Assembly: GCA_016124585.1 (NCBI GenBank) | Contig: WGNL01000029.1 | Span: 62,001 to 126,000, forward strand | Source: Bacteroidota bacterium | GTDB lineage: Bacteria > Bacteroidota > Bacteroidia > Chitinophagales > Saprospiraceae | DNA: 64,000 nucleotides | Reading direction: 5' to 3' | Shown here: in pieces, positions 6,017-47,901 of the stretch | How positions within the stretch are numbered: position 1 is the stretch's first letter | Layout of the letters: every line of letters starts with the position of its first letter | The notes under the pieces: model-generated | What the model saw: only the letters and a program-made list of their open reading frames with translations | Told to the model about the DNA's origin: nothing | Databases searched by the model: none | Translations under genes and position numbers: made by a program

Positions 6017-6024
6017 CAAATTTA
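6017..6024 (-). promoter_or_regulatory. Candidate -7 promoter element (minus strand TAAATTTG)
   Basis: Reads TAAATTTG on the minus strand, about 78 bp before the start at 5939. A -33 partner is not clear. Confidence 0.3.
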
Positions 6025-6096
6025 GAATTAATGTTTAGAAATAAAAGTAGGAATAATCTTAAGATAAATTCTGTCAGATGAATTAACATTTAAGTC

Positions 6097-7500
6097 TTAT
6101 TCGCTTACAAAATACATGTCAACAGCCCCTTTACCTTTTGCCTCCACTTTGCCACGATAAATACAGGCAAATTGCTCTTTTACCAATTCATAGGTTGAGC
6201 CAGATATATTAATTCGGCCTGCTTCACTGGTCTGTTCCATCCTGGCGGCGATGTTCACCGTGTCTCCCCAAATATCGTAGGCGTATTTCTTGATGCCCAC
6301 AATACCGGCCACTACAGGCCCGGTGTGGATGCCAACCCGTGCCTTAAAAGGTGGCTTGCCCAAGGCTTCTTGTTTTCGATTAAAATTCTGTAAAAAAATC
6401 AGCATTTCCTGCCCCGCTTTTATAACGCTTACCGCATCAAAAGCCGCATTTGCCGAAGCAAGTCCAGATTCGGTGAGCCCACCAGCGCAGATGTAGCAGT
6501 CCCCAACGGTCTTGATTTTTTCCAAACCATGCGCTGTGATGATACGGTCATACGCCTCAAAACAGGTGCCAAGGTAAGCCACCAATTCCTCTGGGCCAAT
6601 TTGCTCCGCAATGTTCGTGAAGCCTTGAAAATCGCAAAAAAGCACGGTCACCATCTCATGCCGACGGGTGTCTGAATGTCCAAATTGCTTGAGTTCTTGG
6701 GCAGTTTCAGCAGGCAGGATATTGTAAAGCAGGGCATCCGAAGCTTCCATGTCCACACCCATTTGCCTGTTTTCTTTTTCAAGACGTTTCATCTTTTTTT
6801 GCCAGAAAAACAAGCCGACACCTGCTGCTGGGAAAAGTAGGCCAAGCAGTGTCCTCGCCCAGCCAGCTTGCCACCATGCCGGGTCAGGAGCAATAAGCAT
6901 GGAGCATTTCAGACCTTCAGCGCTTTCGATTTGAAAACTGAATTTTCCCGGATTCTCTAGGATGGAATTCATCACGGCAGCGGCAGCCTGTTGGTATTTG
7001 GAACTGGCATCCTTGGCCAATGCTGAAAACAGTCCAATGGCCTGCATTTGGTCAACATTTGCGGCAGCTAGGGCAGTATACCAACGAGCCTCGTCCTGTA
7101 GGTCAAAGCCACTGAGTTGGGATAGCGGTGAGAGGATTTTTAGTGCTTTTTCGGGAGCTTTCAGATACAAAAAGGTCAAGCCAAAGTATAAGCGTGCGGT
7201 CTTATCGTCAGGGTGAGCTTTGAGGTAAACATTCAGCAATTGTTGGGCTTCCTGGTAGTTGGCTACTCCATACTTGTCGAGCGCTACGGCTAGGCTGTCC
7301 TGTTGGTTTTGTGCCAGCCCAGCAAAACCAGCTACCTTCATTTCCTCCAATATGGCCGCATATTTTTCTTTTTCCGGCTGATAAAGTTCCGACTCCAACC
7401 GTTGAGGCTGTGCAGGTCGGCTGAACCAATAAACTCCTAACCCAACTAGCACGAGTGCAACGGCAAGATGATGGCCATACTTCAAGAGGTTTTGTTTCAT
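6097..7500 (-). CDS. Membrane adenylate cyclase (class III) with TPR-like periplasmic region
   Basis: Converts ATP to cAMP. I start it at the ATG at 7500 (467 residues), because a start at 7548 would add 16 poor residues that overlap a terminator. Order: membrane helix (about 9-27), TPR-like helical segment (45-200), second membrane helix (about 215-235), short coiled linker, then the cyclase domain (about 275-467). The catalytic domain shows LFCDFQGFT with the metal-binding Asp, KIKTVGD with the adenine-selecting Lys and second metal Asp, and DIWGDTVNIAARM with the Asp and Asn/Arg of the active site. Lys plus Asp argue for adenylate rather than guanylate. The TPR part faces the periplasm and may read an external protein signal. 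A minus-strand TAACTTTG directly before the ATG would give a nearly leaderless mRNA. Confidence 0.88.
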   Translation of the reverse strand: MKQNLLKYGHHLAVALVLVGLGVYWFSRPAQPQRLESELYQPEKEKYAAILEEMKVAGFAGLAQNQQDSLAVALDKYGVANYQEAQQLLNVYLKAHPDDKTARLYFGLTFLYLKAPEKALKILSPLSQLSGFDLQDEARWYTALAAANVDQMQAIGLFSALAKDASSKYQQAAAAVMNSILENPGKFSFQIESAEGLKCSMLIAPDPAWWQAGWARTLLGLLFPAAGVGLFFWQKKMKRLEKENRQMGVDMEASDALLYNILPAETAQELKQFGHSDTRRHEMVTVLFCDFQGFTNIAEQIGPEELVAYLGTCFEAYDRIITAHGLEKIKTVGDCYICAGGLTESGLASANAAFDAVSVIKAGQEMLIFLQNFNRKQEALGKPPFKARVGIHTGPVVAGIVGIKKYAYDIWGDTVNIAARMEQTSEAGRINISGSTYELVKEQFACIYRGKVEAKGKGAVDMYFVSE

Positions 7501-42063: not shown

Positions 42064-43623
42064 TTATTCAAGGACAATTTTTTCCAACCTGCACCCATTT
42101 TTGCTTTCCATTTTCAGGAAGTAAATTCCGTTTGCCAATTTGCCAAGTTTGAAAATATGATGACTGCCCGTAGCTTCAGCTGTCAAAACGGTACGACCAG
42201 TCGCATCCAAAATGGAAAGACGTTCGACCGAGGTAGCGCAATCTGACCAATCTACCGATAATATTTCATGGGTAGGATTCGGTGAGATAGCGGCCTCACA
42301 ATCAAATGCTTCCTTTGTAGCGGTAAAAAAATCAGTGTCGGTCCACCAAGTATCTGCATGCTGCACTTCTGCAAGTTCTGCCAATGTCGCAACTGCACCT
42401 TTCACCACGTTTGCCATGAAAGTAAAATTGATGGTACCTAGCGTATCGCTTGGTTGGTGGTAATTAGGGTTACGGAAATTGGCTCCATCCGTCAGCATGA
42501 TGGCAGGTCGATTTGCTATCCAAAAAGGGGCGTGGTCACTACGACCAAGGTCAGGTGTGATTATTTGCCAATTTGATGGAGCTTCTACAGGAACAGACCT
42601 TAGTTCCGGAACATAAGCTTCGGCCGCATCCTGAAAGTCCTGCATCAGCAAAGCAGAACTGCCAGTTTTCCCAACATTTGTGATGAAATTGCCTTTAAAT
42701 TCTTGAGCGGCAACTTCATTGTAGGCATCCGGAAATAGGAAGTTGAATCCAGAGGGAAAGTTTTGAGAGTTGGGCGTGTCAGAGTAGAAGCCAATCATTT
42801 CAAAATCAACCATTCCTAAAATATCTTCACCATTCAATATTCCTGTTGAAACGTATTTTGTGCTACCAATCAGGCCATCTTCCTCTAAATCAAACCCAAT
42901 ATAATTGATAGATTTTTTAGTTGGGAATTGAGAAAGGATACGCATAGCCTCCAACATCCCTGCAACTGCTGAACCATTATCGTCAGCGCCTGGAGCATCG
43001 TCCCTTGTGTCAAAATGACCTCCTAGGATGTATGTTTCACCCGTGATACCTGTCCCATTTTGTTTGCCAATAATGTTTTCAGCATTATAGCTTCCGTAGG
43101 TAAAAGGCTGTAGGCTAGTCTCCAGACTGTGGTCAAGAAATTTTGAGTGTATAAAATCCTTGGTTTCCTGCAAATGAACCGCACCAGTCGTTCGGTGGCG
43201 GATTCCTTCAATGAAGGTGAGGTCTTCAAGTAGTCTGGTGCTATCCACCATGTCTACAAGTGATTGGATATCAATGGGTTGCTGGTCATCGGCAACAAGC
43301 AGCAATCGGAAATCATTCATGGCAGAGGCAGCGTATGCGCTGAAATCCCAGATGATTTGTTTGCCAGTGCCAGGATTTATGCCAACGCCAATGTCGCCTG
43401 TTGCATTGGCTGTAGCATAATCAAGCTTTGCGGCACCAGAGCTTCCTGCCCGGAGACTTATCGTAATTGGATCAGATTCGGCATCAGACAAATCATAATT
43501 GATGATGAAGGTATTGTTGGTACCCAATTGGACTTGTACATTGGAAAGTACGGGGGCTTGGTTTTGCCCAAAAATGTGATTCCCTAACAGGAGAAGGCAA
43601 ATAGCTAGATATAATTTCTGCAT
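42064..43623 (-). CDS. T9SS-exported M28-family aminopeptidase-like protein
   Basis: 519 residues: signal peptide (1-19, HIFGQ), an Ig-like domain (about 22-115), the M28 peptidase domain (about 130-415), and a type A T9SS sorting tail (about 445-519, ISPNPTHEILSVDW, GIYFLKMESKNG). Metal ligands are visible: GGHFDTRDDAPGADDNGSA (His, Asp), DLEEDGLIGS (Glu-Glu with catalytic Glu and metal Glu), and further His/Asp in GRSDHAPFW. It probably removes N-terminal residues from extracellular peptides using two zinc ions. Convergent with the giant surface protein. Confidence 0.88.
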   Translation of the reverse strand: MQKLYLAICLLLLGNHIFGQNQAPVLSNVQVQLGTNNTFIINYDLSDAESDPITISLRAGSSGAAKLDYATANATGDIGVGINPGTGKQIIWDFSAYAASAMNDFRLLLVADDQQPIDIQSLVDMVDSTRLLEDLTFIEGIRHRTTGAVHLQETKDFIHSKFLDHSLETSLQPFTYGSYNAENIIGKQNGTGITGETYILGGHFDTRDDAPGADDNGSAVAGMLEAMRILSQFPTKKSINYIGFDLEEDGLIGSTKYVSTGILNGEDILGMVDFEMIGFYSDTPNSQNFPSGFNFLFPDAYNEVAAQEFKGNFITNVGKTGSSALLMQDFQDAAEAYVPELRSVPVEAPSNWQIITPDLGRSDHAPFWIANRPAIMLTDGANFRNPNYHQPSDTLGTINFTFMANVVKGAVATLAELAEVQHADTWWTDTDFFTATKEAFDCEAAISPNPTHEILSVDWSDCATSVERLSILDATGRTVLTAEATGSHHIFKLGKLANGIYFLKMESKNGCRLEKIVLE

Positions 43624-43645
43624 GGTTGGAAATTTTTAGTTTGAG

Positions 43646-43653
43646 CAAAACTA
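43646..43653 (-). promoter_or_regulatory. Candidate -7 promoter element (minus strand TAGTTTTG)
   Basis: Matches TAnnTTTG on the minus strand, 23 bp before the M28 gene start, predicting a leader of about 15 bases. Confidence 0.4.
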
Positions 43654-43684
43654 AAAAAGCCATGCTTTTTATCCGAATGGATAA

Positions 43685-44236
43685 TTAATTGCTCGAGCGT
43701 GTATTTGCCTTTGCTGTATTTTTTGCGTTTTCAGGATTTGAAATATTCCTAACGATTGGGAAGGCAAAACTGGCGTAGTGGGAAAATTTCTTGGAATACT
43801 TCAAAGGCAGACGGTATTGCTTAGCAAAGCCCTCCAGAAAATTTTTCATCAATTCAGTGCTAACATTGCGGGAATTCGGTTTCAAATAAAACCCGATGTG
43901 TTCAAGACTACCATCGGCACGCCAGAAGAAGTGAATCCAAGCATTAATGCCTTTGAGGTCAAAATCCACGAGCTCTGCGTAGGCTTCCATCTCTTGCATC
44001 ATTCCCATCAATTTGGAATAAGCCAAATTCATGTCATCATTGCAGGCATCCAGCAAAGTGGATTGGTCCGCCATCATTTCGTCATAGCGTTTGTCCAGTT
44101 CTCCCAAAAGGAAAACAGTAGGTATGTCCTGTTTCAAAGGGAACTTGACAGAGCTGGTGCTTTGTGACAAAAGGTCTCCATTGCCACTACAAAAAATAAC
44201 TCCTGTTAGAATTGCGATTAACGATATTCTCTTCAT
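43685..44236 (-). CDS. Exported protein of unknown function
   Basis: 183 residues with a signal peptide (about 1-25, GDLLSQ). The mature part alternates helices and strands: DIPTVFLLGELDKRYDEMM, a helical middle, LKGINAWIHFFWRADGSLEHIGFYLKPNSRN (a beta-hairpin-rich segment), and FAKQYRLPLKYSKKFSHYASFAFP. The 'FFWRADGSLEHIGFYLKP' pattern looks like a conserved small domain similar in shape to TonB-type C-terminal folds, but I would not name it. It has a weak terminator-less gap to the M28 gene. Confidence 0.6.
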   Translation of the reverse strand: MKRISLIAILTGVIFCSGNGDLLSQSTSSVKFPLKQDIPTVFLLGELDKRYDEMMADQSTLLDACNDDMNLAYSKLMGMMQEMEAYAELVDFDLKGINAWIHFFWRADGSLEHIGFYLKPNSRNVSTELMKNFLEGFAKQYRLPLKYSKKFSHYASFAFPIVRNISNPENAKNTAKANTRSSN

Positions 44237-44501
44237 CGTTTTACAGCTTTAAAAGTGTTACAGCGTAGCGGTGTCTAAAATTTCTTTTAGCCTAATTTGA
44301 GGTAATTTGGAAGGAGGGGGCTTTTTGTATAGTTTATTTTGTGAAAATTTGAATGGAGTGAGAAATACCAAAGTGCCTTACAAATTTACGGATAGAATCC
44401 GAACTATCCATACGTTCGTCTAAAATTAGGCCAACAAATTTTATAACCCCTTATCTTGCAGGCTTTTATGAAACAACTTTTGAGAAAACTAATTTTTTGA
44501 G

Positions 44502-45110
44502 ATGATTATTGATGTTATTTTACTCATTGTTGCCGGGTGGGGTTTTTACCAAGGTTACTCCAGGGGCATCATCAAAACAGTTTTTACTGTTTTCTCCATT
44601 GTCTTTGGTTTGATGGTCGCCTTTAAGTTTTCGCCAGCAGCCACTCGTTTCATTGAGACAGCCTTCCATTCCAACAGCCCTCTGAATTTTATTGTAGGCT
44701 TTTTGTTGTCTTTTGTGCTAACAATGATAATTATTCGAATGACAGCGCAGTTCTTCGAAAAAACGCTGCAAGCTGCCAACATCAATGTCATTAACAAATT
44801 CGCAGGTGGGATTTTGTTAGCTTCTCTCTACACACTTGTTTTGAGCTTGTTGATTTGGTTTGGCGACCAAGCGCACATCATAACTCCAGAAAATTCTCAA
44901 GGCTCGATGACCTACCAAAGTTTGAAAGTTTTTCCAAGTAAGATGAAAGGGGTTTATGATTACATCAAGCCTGGATTTCAGGATTTTTGGCATGAATCGG
45001 TAAAGTTTATTGATCAAATGCAAGAGAAAAGTCTTGAAAAAACAGAGTCGCAGCCTACCATTTTTGATATACCTGAAGAAAATGAAAAGCAAGAAAAATC
45101 CGCAAATTGA
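44502..45110 (+). CDS. CvpA-family inner-membrane protein
   Basis: 202 residues with four membrane helices (about 2-20, 25-42, 63-85, 100-120) and a cytoplasmic tail. The N-terminus IIDVILLIVAGWGFYQGYSRG and the DPxG-like region 'NKFAGGILLASLYTLVLSLLIW' match the CvpA (colicin V production) family, which occurs in most bacteria and is linked to envelope stress and cell-surface growth. The C-terminal 60 residues are charged and repetitive in Glu/Lys. It is followed by the separate promoter of the cysteine attenuator. Confidence 0.88.
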   Translation: MIIDVILLIVAGWGFYQGYSRGIIKTVFTVFSIVFGLMVAFKFSPAATRFIETAFHSNSPLNFIVGFLLSFVLTMIIIRMTAQFFEKTLQAANINVINKFAGGILLASLYTLVLSLLIWFGDQAHIITPENSQGSMTYQSLKVFPSKMKGVYDYIKPGFQDFWHESVKFIDQMQEKSLEKTESQPTIFDIPEENEKQEKSAN

Positions 45111-45167
45111 CGATTTAGGCTAAATGTTATAAAAAACGTAAAAACTACACTTTCTATCCAAAATGTG

Positions 45168-45197
45168 TTTGACAGTATTGTCACCTTTTTATATTTG
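45168..45197 (+). promoter_or_regulatory. Promoter of the cysH leader, TTTG-N18-TATATTTG
   Basis: A -33 TTTG (45168-45171) and a -7 TATATTTG (45190-45197) are 18 bp apart, the spacing expected for the main Bacteroidota sigma factor. Transcription would start near 45204, just 13 bases before the leader peptide ATG. Confidence 0.7.
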
Positions 45198-45216
45198 CCC
45201 ATCAATCAACTAGTAC

Positions 45217-45291
45217 ATGAAGCTTTTCATCAATTTACTCAATCATTTTCAGCCCACTTTGATGTGCTGTTGTCGTTGTTGTATTCCGTGA
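45217..45291 (+). CDS. Cysteine-run leader peptide (24 residues)
   Basis: A 24-codon frame from ATG 45217 to TGA 45289-45291. Residues 17-22 are CCCRCC, i.e. five Cys codons out of six (TGC TGT TGT CGT TGT TGT), in a genome where Cys is rare. It starts 13 bases after the predicted transcription start and stops 40 bases before a strong intrinsic terminator that precedes the cysteine-biosynthesis gene cysH. This is the layout of amino acid attenuators such as trpL and hisL, with the rare run placed so that a shortage of charged Cys-tRNA stalls the ribosome before the terminator. Too short for normal gene callers. Leader role is inference. Confidence 0.65.
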   Translation: MKLFINLLNHFQPTLMCCCRCCIP

Positions 45292-45331
45292 AAAGCGCTG
45301 AATTGGCATTAAATAGCTAAAGCTGTTTAAG

Positions 45332-45368
45332 AAAGCCTTTTCGGAGCTACCCCGAAAAGGCTTTTTGT
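45332..45368 (+). terminator. Attenuator terminator before cysH
   Basis: Perfect 13-bp stem AAAGCCTTTTCGG (45332-45344) / CCGAAAAGGCTTT (45352-45364), 7-base loop, then TTTTTG. A possible competing pairing is GAAAAG at 45290-45295, next to the leader stop codon, with CTTTTC inside the left arm; a ribosome at the stop codon would cover it, and one stalled at the Cys codons would leave it free. Confidence 0.8.
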
Positions 45369-45563
45369 TTTACACCGTTTTTTCCGATTTCCGGCCCAAA
45401 CAGGTTTAAAAATTCATTCGCAAGAGAAGGCTGGTTGGTGGGTTTTATCTTAAATCCATCAAGTTGGACTGTCGCCTGTTGTCACAGGTGGTACAGATAT
45501 TTTATTTTGTTGTGGGGCGATACTGCCGCATGACTTGTTTCATCATTTTTATCTTCAATTTTC
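45369..45563 (+). other. 195-bp untranslated stretch between attenuator and cysH
   Basis: No gene. Contains small inverted words (CTGTCGCCTGTTGTCACAGG) that could fold, but I see no known riboswitch consensus. Confidence 0.4.
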
Positions 45564-46301
45564 ATGATGACCTTCGAATTAAATAATTCAAGAATTGCAG
45601 AAACAACCAAAACTACTCAGTGGCAGGACATCAGCGTTGAATTGCTAAACGATATTTTTACTCCCCTTCCTTTTCAGGAACGGATACGATTGCTCTATAA
45701 ATATTTTCGGGAGGATGATGTACTGCTTACATCTTCCTTCGGTACGACATCCGCTTTCCTGTTGTATTGGGTAAATGAAGTTCGTCCAACGCAGACTATC
45801 CATTTTATTGATACGACCTACCATTTTTCAGAAACAATTGCCTACAAGGAAAAACTGACAGCGCTGTTAGGTCTGAAAGTAGTAGAAGTGCTGCCTGAAC
45901 CAGCCCAAAATGCCTTGACCCGTGATGAAAGATGGTGGCAGGAGCATCCCCGGATGTGTTGTAGCATCAATAAAGTTGTACCGTTGGAGTCAGTCAAGGC
46001 GGCACACAAGGTTTGGATTTCTGGCCTGATGTCCTATCAAACCGAATTTCGTTCGCACCTGCGTGTCTTCGAACGGCAGGGTGATATTCTCAAGTTTCAC
46101 CCACTGATTGATGTTGATGAAGGGGAACTACTGTATCATTTTTCGTTGCACAATTTACCCCGCCACCCGCTTGAAGAACGGGGATTTGGCTCCATTGGAT
46201 GTGTACATTGTACCAAGCAAGGTGAGGGTAGGGAAGGGCGGTTCAAAGGCCAAAGCCGTACGGAATGTGGGCTGCACCCAGGATATTTTATTAAAAAATG
46301 A
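45564..46301 (+). CDS. cysH: Phosphoadenylyl/adenylyl-sulfate reductase, assimilatory
   Basis: 245 residues, cytoplasmic. Reduces (P)APS to sulfite in sulfate assimilation toward cysteine. Visible motifs: SSFGTTSAFLLYW (PP-loop-like ATP-pyrophosphatase fold), RMCCSINKVVPL (Cys pair), and GCVHCTKQGEGREGRFKGQSRTECGLH near the C-terminus (CxxC, then the redox ECGLH). The two Cys pairs are the ligands of the 4Fe-4S cluster of plant/bacterial APS-reductase-type enzymes. It is probably controlled by the Cys leader attenuator 270 bp upstream, and overlaps no other true gene; the YkgJ-type gene starts 50 bp after its stop. Start at 45564 (ATG ATG) fits the usual length. Confidence 0.92.
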   Translation: MMTFELNNSRIAETTKTTQWQDISVELLNDIFTPLPFQERIRLLYKYFREDDVLLTSSFGTTSAFLLYWVNEVRPTQTIHFIDTTYHFSETIAYKEKLTALLGLKVVEVLPEPAQNALTRDERWWQEHPRMCCSINKVVPLESVKAAHKVWISGLMSYQTEFRSHLRVFERQGDILKFHPLIDVDEGELLYHFSLHNLPRHPLEERGFGSIGCVHCTKQGEGREGRFKGQSRTECGLHPGYFIKK

Positions 46302-46350
46302 TAAAACAGAGACAAAGGCTTTCGGCTATTTTTGGGGCAAAAAATCAAAA

Positions 46351-46848
46351 ATGCCATCACCGCTGATTGAGACTTGGAAACAACGAAAGCCAAAGACAGA
46401 GGCAGAAAATTTGGAAATTATTAAGCGGCTGAAGCGCAAGCAGGGCAAACAGTTGGATGTCTTGGCCGATGAAGTTCATGATGATGTATTCAAAAAAATT
46501 GATTGTTTGGAATGCGCTGGCTGCTGCACGGGTATTCCACCAATTGTCACAAGGGCAGATGTGACTCGGATTGCAAAGGATTTTGGGATGCGACCTGCCG
46601 ATTTCCAAGATAAATACTTGATGGTGGACGAGGATGGGGATACCGTTATGAAAACGACACCCTGCCCATTTTTGGAATCTGACAACAAATGCCTGATTTA
46701 CGATATCCGCCCTCGTGCTTGCCGCCAATATCCACATACCAACTACCTCGATTTTTCAAAAAACATGCGGCTACATGCACCGAATGCAAATATCTGCCCA
46801 GCAGTTTTTCATATTCTTAGGGAAATTGAGAGGCGGTTGGACAAGTGA
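46351..46848 (+). CDS. YkgJ-type cysteine-cluster protein
   Basis: 165 residues from the ATG at 46351; the frame is open further upstream inside cysH, but those residues are unlike the family. The metal-binding cysteines are seen as LECAGCCTGIPP, CPFL, CLIYDIRPRACRQYP and ICPAV, the typical CxxCC...C...C...CRxYP arrangement of the YkgJ/Fe-S or zinc cluster family (also called UPF0153). Such proteins are of unknown biochemical function. Lying 49 bp after cysH in the same direction, it is likely in the same mRNA and thus under the same cysteine control. Confidence 0.85.
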   Translation: MPSPLIETWKQRKPKTEAENLEIIKRLKRKQGKQLDVLADEVHDDVFKKIDCLECAGCCTGIPPIVTRADVTRIAKDFGMRPADFQDKYLMVDEDGDTVMKTTPCPFLESDNKCLIYDIRPRACRQYPHTNYLDFSKNMRLHAPNANICPAVFHILREIERRLDK

Positions 46849-46896
46849 TTGACAATCTGCTGTAAACAACATTGCCGACCACTTGCCTCTAATAAT

Positions 46897-47901
46897 TTAA
46901 CTCAGTTCGGTCCCCACTTTCTCTAACAGCGCTTTAGTCAGGCGAATACCTTCCTCTTCAGACACTTTTTCCCCTTCGTATTCGATACCGATATAATCCG
47001 TATAGCCTGCTTCCTTGACCACTTGGAGCATTTTTCGGTAGTCGGTTTCCGTGCAATTGCCTTCGGCGTCAAAATCATGTGTTTTTGCACTAACTCCTTT
47101 GGCGAACGGCATCATCTGTCCAACTCCTTTGTAGCGGTCGTACTCTTCAACGCAAGGCCCATTCCATGGATCACCGTCCTTGTTGTCCCTCCTAATGCAG
47201 AAATTACCGAAATCAGGTAGGCAGCCAACATTGGGTTTATTGATTTCCTTCATCACACCGCTGAGCCAATCCCCATTGGACGAGTAGCCGCCGTGATTTT
47301 CCACGATGACGTTTATGCCAGCTTGGGCGCCATATTCACCGAGTTTGCTCAGCCCCTCAACTGCTGCCTTGGCAGCTTCTTCAGGGTTTTTATTACTGCT
47401 GAAAGCATTTACCCGGATGCTCTTGCAACCCAGTGTATGGGCAGCGTCCACCCATTTTTTGTGATTTTCGATGGCTTCAGCTAACATTTTTTTGTCTGTT
47501 TCGGCCATGCCACCCTCCCCATCTATCATGATAAGATTTTGAAAAACTCCATTGTCGGCAGCCCGTTTGTTCAGTTCAGCAAGGTAGGTAGCGTCTGTGG
47601 CTTTGTCCTTGAACATCTGATTCACGTATTCGATGGCCTCAATTCCGTATTTGTTGCGAGCAGTTGCGGCAAAGTCCAAGTTGTCGAGTTTTTTGTCGTC
47701 AAAAATGGTTCTGTGCAGTGACCATTCTGCGAGGGAAATTTTAAAAAACAAATTTTTAGCACCGCCGGTAATAGCGGTGGAATCGACTTGTTCGGCATTC
47801 TCATCTGTCGGCTTTCCTTCCTTGGTTGCGCAACCAGCGAGCCAAAATGCACCTAGCGCCATGGTGGAGTGTTTTAGGAAGTTTCTTCTTGGATTCGTCA
47901 T
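46897..47901 (-). CDS. Tat-exported lipoprotein of sugar phosphate isomerase/epimerase family
   Basis: 334 residues from the ATG at 47901; the longer frame to 48075 adds an implausible stretch. The start shows a twin-arginine signal with RRNFLK and lipobox LAGC (Cys about 23), as in Bacteroidota lipoproteins folded in the cytoplasm before export. The body is a TIM barrel of the xylose-isomerase-like/hydroxypyruvate-isomerase type: LAEWSLHRT, GIEAIEYVNQMF, VIVENHGGYSSN (catalytic Glu), CLPDFGNF (metal Asp), GISAKTHDFD with His, and YIGIEYEGEKVSEEEGI (metal Glu). Substrate sugar unknown. It is convergent with the YkgJ-type gene. Confidence 0.85.
   Translation of the reverse strand: MTNPRRNFLKHSTMALGAFWLAGCATKEGKPTDENAEQVDSTAITGGAKNLFFKISLAEWSLHRTIFDDKKLDNLDFAATARNKYGIEAIEYVNQMFKDKATDATYLAELNKRAADNGVFQNLIMIDGEGGMAETDKKMLAEAIENHKKWVDAAHTLGCKSIRVNAFSSNKNPEEAAKAAVEGLSKLGEYGAQAGINVIVENHGGYSSNGDWLSGVMKEINKPNVGCLPDFGNFCIRRDNKDGDPWNGPCVEEYDRYKGVGQMMPFAKGVSAKTHDFDAEGNCTETDYRKMLQVVKEAGYTDYIGIEYEGEKVSEEEGIRLTKALLEKVGTELS

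Follow-up and report, generated by a model that had tools for sequence, protein, structure and literature searches.

Leader-peptide transcription attenuators of the trp, his and leu type occur in Proteobacteria. According to PMC2965389, demonstrated leader-peptide systems were confined to Proteobacteria and Actinobacteria as of 2010. Cys-run leaders have been described in Actinobacteria, where terminators were not seen (PMC1262725), as have cysteine-rich uORFs in mycobacteria (PMC4633059). Polycysteine short ORFs are also reported to occur in mycobacteria (Canestrari et al. 2020; PMC8764745), according to PMC9094748 and PMC9031893, and further cysteine uORFs are given in PMC13236596. The uORFC-8-2 motif, found before cysS in Rhodobacterales, contains a uORF with two tandem Cys codons (PMC8632094). 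Within Bacteroidota, leader-peptide attenuation was noted before amino-acid operons of Flavobacterium psychrophilum from their 5' regions (PMC9723704), and leader-like short ORFs were noted in Bacteroides (PMC7366714). The open-access literature searched, supplements excluded, contained no description of a Bacteroidota Cys leader. The earlier note on this DNA, made from sequence alone, had stated that Cys-run leaders are described in Actinobacteria and that it knew of no established one for Bacteroidota cysH.

The window, meaning the whole stretch of 64,000 nucleotides analysed, comes from a Bacteroidota genome of the Saprospiraceae, and the element studied here lies between a CvpA-family gene and cysH (Table 1). 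The earlier note had claimed that a TTTG-N18 promoter, a 24-codon Cys-run leader, a 13-bp terminator and cysH follow one another in that order and make up a cysteine attenuator. A sequence check of the window found all of these elements and confirmed their order and every coordinate. The attenuator claim is supported by comparison with relatives, regulation being inferred in the absence of expression data. We consider it very likely (probability about 0.88) that the element works by ribosome-mediated transcription attenuation, with charged tRNA-Cys as its signal and a sulfate-assimilation gene as its target; translation of the leader, ribosome stalling and the response to cysteine are inferred.

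Table 1 Features of the cysH region of the window. L081 is the corresponding locus of Saprospiraceae bacterium UBA6168.
Feature	Position	Strand	Details	Basis
CvpA (Colicin V production) family gene	44502..45110	+	Upstream neighbour	PF02674, E 4.4e-20
Candidate promoter	45168..45197	+	TTTG at 45168-45171, 18-nt gap, -7 box TATATTTG at 45190-45197 (form TAnnTTTG)	Sequence
Leader ORF	45217..45291	+	24 codons, MKLFINLLNHFQPTLMCCCRCCIP followed by stop	Sequence, comparison with relatives
Regulatory codons, Cys Cys Cys Arg Cys Cys	45265..45282	+	TGC TGT TGT CGT TGT TGT	Sequence; aligned to leader 1 of L081
Putative antiterminator 5' strand	45294..45307	+	Pairs 45294-45296/45346-45348, 45298-45302/45340-45344, 45305-45307/45335-45337	Folding
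Hairpin within antiterminator	45309..45330	+	9 pairs, 4-nt loop	Folding
Intrinsic terminator	45330..45371	+	Stem of up to 15 pairs, 45330-45344/45352-45366, 7-nt loop, T-rich tail	Sequence, folding
cysH, phosphoadenylyl-sulfate reductase, proposed controlled gene	45564..46301	+		PF01507, E 6.8e-28; NF002537, 176.8 bits (cut-off 154)
CxxCxxCC-domain (YkgJ-like) protein gene	46351..46848	+	Start codon inferred	PF03692 on longer ORF 46108-46848

The -7 box has the form of the consensus TAnnTTTG named in PMC9723704, and the leader ATG lies 19 nt downstream of it, so a short 5' leader is likely, the start site being unmapped. Five of the six regulatory codons encode Cys. The terminator, which has a core of 13 perfect pairs (arms 45332-45344 and 45352-45364), begins 40 nt after the leader stop, and the stop itself is 272 nt from cysH. 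The fold of the 174-nt leader RNA beat 200 of 200 dinucleotide shuffles (z -4.53). The terminator was missed by the simple terminator scanner run on the window, a miss that we ascribe, as the likely but inferred cause, to the stem running into the T tract; the promoter hexamers used by the simple scanner are not of the Bacteroidota type. A second terminator-like hairpin (45470-45493, 10 pairs of which 4 are G-C) lies between the attenuator and cysH, and about two such sites are expected by chance in the scan. An Rfam 15 search of the window stretch gave nine matches at E<=10, all under the gathering score, and in ten relative loci tRNA was the sole match; the leader element is covered by no family.

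Conservation was examined at the cysH loci of relatives. A cysH match was present in 35 of 60 relatives, and 30 cysH loci were inspected over 700 bp upstream. Within this distance a Cys-rich short ORF was clear in the window (L001), L008 and L012 and weaker in L010, L011, L018 and L019; none was seen in the 700 bp before cysH at the remaining loci, including four same-genus orthologues (L002-L005). Taken alone this result would count against the finding, but larger stretches showed a leader about 4 kb upstream of cysH, and that position accounts for it. L081 carries, one after another, leader 1 with its terminator, leader 2 with its terminator, a NirA-like sulfite reductase (SiR; PF01077/PF03460), uroporphyrinogen-III C-methyltransferase, a CysG N-terminal domain and cysH, and the leader thus heads a SiR-SUMT-CysG-cysH operon. 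Three of the four same-genus orthologues (L081, L082 and L084) carry the leader at the operon head; the fourth, L083, has neither SiR nor leader within the fetched stretch. The earlier note had proposed looking in relatives for a conserved Cys-run frame and terminator. Both are kept, but mostly at the operon head rather than directly before cysH.

The main set comprised 46 named cysH loci from other genomes (L081-L126), with which L061-L080 overlap; these were de-duplicated by hand before leaders were compared. In 31 of the 46, the cysH strand carries an ORF of 6-60 codons with a Cys run and, after it, an intrinsic terminator. As a control, runs of at least four identical residues of any kind with a terminator near the stop were counted on both strands. 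ORFs with at least four Cys in a row numbered 41 on the sense strand (38 with a terminator, in 24 loci) versus none on the antisense strand, and the next residues were Leu (22 sense, 5 with a terminator), Gln (9 antisense, 3), Ser (8 antisense, 1) and Gly (4 antisense, 1). Because the same layout recurs in relatives, and on the sense strand only, the arrangement is more than chance. The Cys codons of 58 leaders are mixed (238 TGT and 128 TGC), indicating that the Cys run is not a DNA repeat. The runs are 2 to 9 residues long, without fixed spacing or conserved flanks. The leader ORFs of L120 (at 2213) and L123 (at 2280) share SASKRCACW(H/Y)WCCCMQ, an unusually conserved peptide with Trp within the Cys cluster. 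Note that the 82 leaders eventually compared are phylogenetically non-independent.

Cys-run DNA by itself was rejected as a marker: the pattern matched 74 of 298 genomes and a reversed-pattern control matched at a similar level, making it uninformative alone. A strict pattern (Cys run plus AAAGCC) matched 11 of 395 genomes of the phylum with no convincing matched string; the sensitivity of this pattern is unmeasured.

The association of the leader is with sulfite reductase. A complete SiR gene with upstream sequence was available in 25 of the 46 loci, and a leader lies no more than 700 bp before SiR in 24 of these, the exception being L122, which has a complete SiR and no leader in the 700 bp before it. 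Three further loci have a truncated SiR region, two of them with a leader, and of the 18 loci with no SiR in the fetched stretch five have a leader. At L117 (2625-6651) a Cys leader precedes a cysteine synthase gene, the first of a series continuing with a JAB protein, a MoeB/rhodanese protein and cysH; this is another kind of cysteine operon, apparently controlled in the same way. No Cys leader with a terminator was found at cysD (0/30) or cysKM (0/30) loci of relatives, where flanks of only about 1.5 kb were available.

Across the class Bacteroidia, 93 of 345 genomes gave a SiR match, and the upstream regions of 81 were taken, 12 with weak or truncated matches being left out. The 81 include the SiR locus of the window's own genome (L141, the same place as L061). 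By the Cys motif, a leader and terminator precede SiR in 24 of the 81. When the motif was relaxed to six residues of which at least two are Cys and at least four are either Cys or Met, the count was 38 of 81 on the sense strand versus 0 of 81 on the antisense strand, and by a hand count of labels the 38 loci belong to 17 families; L178, which has a long frame, and L203 are doubtful members. The other 43 regions had no leader by the relaxed test. Among them are short stretches (L185 and L172 have 906-1100 nt) and some where SiR is perhaps not the first gene. An automatic grouping of the 81 regions by nearest gene mislocated the SiR starts and was set aside.

Two leaders are present in 22 of the 60 leader-bearing loci, one of these pairs having overlapping frames (spacing -59). 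The motif TAnnTTTG precedes 34 of the 60 first leaders, where shuffles gave 6.7 on average and 11 at most, and none of the 22 second leaders (shuffle mean 1.3); the exact motif is missing before the other 26 first leaders. This distribution fits one transcript that passes two gates in series, for which there are no transcript data.

A candidate switch had been put forward in the earlier note, pairing GAAAAG at the leader stop with CTTTTC of the terminator arm. This claim held in part: the pairing exists, but a longer one slightly downstream (45294-45307 with 45335-45348) is better supported. When free from nucleotide 10 after the Cys run, the partial transcript of the window folds at -22.3 kcal/mol, versus -10.7 kcal/mol with a ribosome at the stop, and none of 60 shuffled controls (mean -12.2 kcal/mol) was as low as -22.3. 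For 58 and later 82 leaders we then computed how well the RNA that follows the last Cys codon, up to the terminator, pairs with the 5' arm and loop of that terminator. Over the 82, leaders paired with their own arms at a mean of -14.82 kcal/mol versus -10.49 kcal/mol for swapped arms, with 0 of 5000 permutations as low, and the values were -15.04 versus -10.82 kcal/mol when only first leaders, one per locus, were used (n=60). The antiterminator therefore co-evolves with the terminator arm, as shown by computation only. In 60 of 82 leaders this pairing sets in at nucleotides 10-17 beyond the last Cys codon (17.6% with shuffled sequence), and partial-transcript folds had z below -1 relative to shuffles in 77 of 82 (mean z -2.90). 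That the stalled fold is lower by 4 kcal in 82 of 82 leaders was not retained as evidence, since it is partly a length effect, and the shuffle and swap controls were relied on instead. A protector pairing at the start of the leader also favored own over swapped partners (-22.51 versus -18.65), and in the window 45222-45230 can pair with 45288-45296.

The full-length leader was also folded with the ribosome footprint masked at one of four positions (Cys1, Cys3, Cys5, stop). The minimum-energy structure was the terminator in four of four cases, so antitermination must be kinetic, decided during transcription before the 3' arm is made. Classical attenuators also choose their structure during transcription. 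The footprint of a ribosome halted on a Cys codon, in either the A or the P site, extends over about ten nucleotides downstream and would leave the antiterminator strand just free, whereas a ribosome at the stop would cover it.

The proposed mechanism is as follows. When cysteine is plentiful the ribosome would pass the Cys codons to the leader stop and cover 45294-45303; with the antiterminator blocked the terminator would form and transcription would end before cysH. When Cys-tRNA is scarce the ribosome would stall on the regulatory codons and leave the antiterminator strand free to capture the terminator 5' arm while RNA polymerase is still making the terminator. Termination would thereby be prevented, and transcription would continue into cysH and the CxxCxxCC gene, which is likely to be co-transcribed with it, a point on which transcript data are lacking. 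The anatomy of the element, its conservation, its orthology to attenuator 1 of relatives and the co-evolution of antiterminator and terminator arm are shown. Four hallmarks of an attenuator are present: a Cys-rich leader ORF, a terminator before the gene, a phased competing antiterminator (computational only) and downstream cysteine-making genes. That leader and gene share one transcript from the upstream promoter is suggested by the motif counts alone, and a dependence of read-through on charged tRNA and on leader translation is inferred.

The orthology rests on a blastn comparison of window positions 43601-47000 with L081. Window 43701-45079 aligns with L081 348-1730 (71.6%) and 45588-46832 with 6022-7273 (72.1%); between them, 45260-45371 aligns with the leader 1 unit at 1909-2031 (73.4%, E 2e-11). 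The CvpA-family gene is syntenic with the gene preceding leader 1 in L081, and the CxxCxxCC gene adjoins cysH there too. About 4 kb of L081 (leader 2, SiR, SUMT and CysG-N) is absent from the window, which places the window attenuator directly before cysH. The window copy is thus a rearranged single unit orthologous to attenuator 1 of the SiR-SUMT-CysG-cysH operons of relatives. Since the full order is common among relatives, loss in the window lineage is inferred to be the likelier direction. The window leader is weaker than most, with Arg within the run and the operon partly lost, and decay is conceivable. The window genome has a second cysH at 48% identity. It also carries a second SiR-SUMT-CysG-cysH operon (L061; G000:C23:180000-199000) with two Cys-run leaders, one of which is MRCCCQMSMCCCTC.

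Methionine is frequent in these leaders. Met makes up 40 of 134 non-Cys residues within the Cys cluster and 73 of the 324 residues at the two positions flanking it on each side, and it occurs in or beside the cluster in 61 of 82 leaders. Over the set used for the tandem count, from which repeated peptides and one with unread letters were excluded, its share of non-Cys leader residues is 8.7%, as against 2.7% for the remaining short ORFs of these loci. The SiR upstream regions L148, L153 and L156 have MMCCMMC-type leaders, in which Met is about as numerous as Cys and which the pure Cys motif missed. Some Met residues before the Cys run may be alternative starts; those inside or after the run need another reason. 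Sensing of both sulfur amino acids, Cys and Met, is a possibility that has not been shown. A bolder reading, which could as readily prove wrong as right, is that across much of the class Bacteroidia assimilatory sulfite reductase has one of its main controls in Cys/Met attenuation, a system unreported in Bacteroidota before. One or two units in series with mixed leaders (MMCCMMC, MCMCFMC) would then give read-through upon shortage of either charged tRNA, and two gates would sharpen or multiply the response.

Four other explanations were considered. The one that survives best, though we judge it unlikely, is that the window element is a relic of the SiR-SUMT-CysG loss and no longer regulates. 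In its favor are the missing 4 kb, the Arg that interrupts the Cys run and the second SiR operon of the same genome with its own tandem leaders (L061). However, the window copy retains an intact promoter, ORF, stop, antiterminator and perfect terminator, and none of 60 shuffles equals its antiterminator.

Much less likely is that the leader works by translational coupling or re-initiation, as in mycobacterial polycysteine short ORFs, with the hairpin an incidental terminator. Mycobacterial polycysteine leader ORFs were reported as cysteine-responsive attenuators (cited in PMC9094748 and PMC9031893), and PMC1262725 found no terminators at polycysteine leaders. Against this, all units counted include an intrinsic terminator, covariation ties the antiterminator to the terminator arm and the window leader ends the full 272 nt short of cysH. 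Equally hard to sustain is the proposal that the peptide is the sensor, a Cys-rich nascent chain that stalls the ribosome by binding metal or reacting with oxidants, as in copper-responsive leaders. Cys clusters do generally bind metals, and an exported protein that senses copper as a nascent chain has been reported (PMC9973294), but runs of such variable length with no fixed spacing or conserved flanks and with Met interleaved do not fit. Moreover, the antiterminator pairing keeps phase with the last Cys codon, and the genes that follow are those of sulfur assimilation. A chance meeting of a Cys-coding repeat and a terminator, for which it may be said that Cys-run DNA is about as frequent in the control pattern, is all but excluded, being refuted by the comparative counts, in which the element recurs solely on the sense strand and heads a single type of operon.

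Transcription attenuation by a leader peptide remains the preferred reading, and it names a likely mechanism for control of assimilatory sulfate reduction across a large phylum. Codon-exact and easily tested predictions follow from it. The single and tandem attenuators (tandem in 22 of 60 loci) form a natural set for asking why two termination gates stack, and if Met codons do count, one short RNA reads both sulfur amino acids.

Very probably, then, the element is a conserved attenuator of the familiar leader-peptide sort, frequently tandem and mixing Cys with Met codons, in a phylum and a pathway that are new for it; its regulation by cysteine is inferred. Like the trp, his and leu attenuators it has a leader ORF with codons for the end product, an alternative antiterminator and an intrinsic terminator, and a biosynthetic gene downstream; it differs in its Cys (and Met) codons, its Bacteroidota promoter type and the frequent presence of two complete units in series. 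With the F. psychrophilum case it shares the phylum and the general mechanism suggested, but the passages of PMC9723704 on that case mention neither a cysteine leader nor a sulfur operon. The uORFC-8-2 motif likewise combines Cys codons in a uORF with a terminator stem, but has two Cys codons before a cysteinyl-tRNA synthetase gene in Alphaproteobacteria, whereas here longer runs precede SiR or cysH in Bacteroidota. Finally, the actinobacterial polycysteine leaders are also short ORFs ending in a Cys run before cysteine or sulfur genes. The mycobacterial ones are leaderless and no terminators were found in PMC1262725, in contrast to the intrinsic terminator and phased antiterminator of the elements described here.
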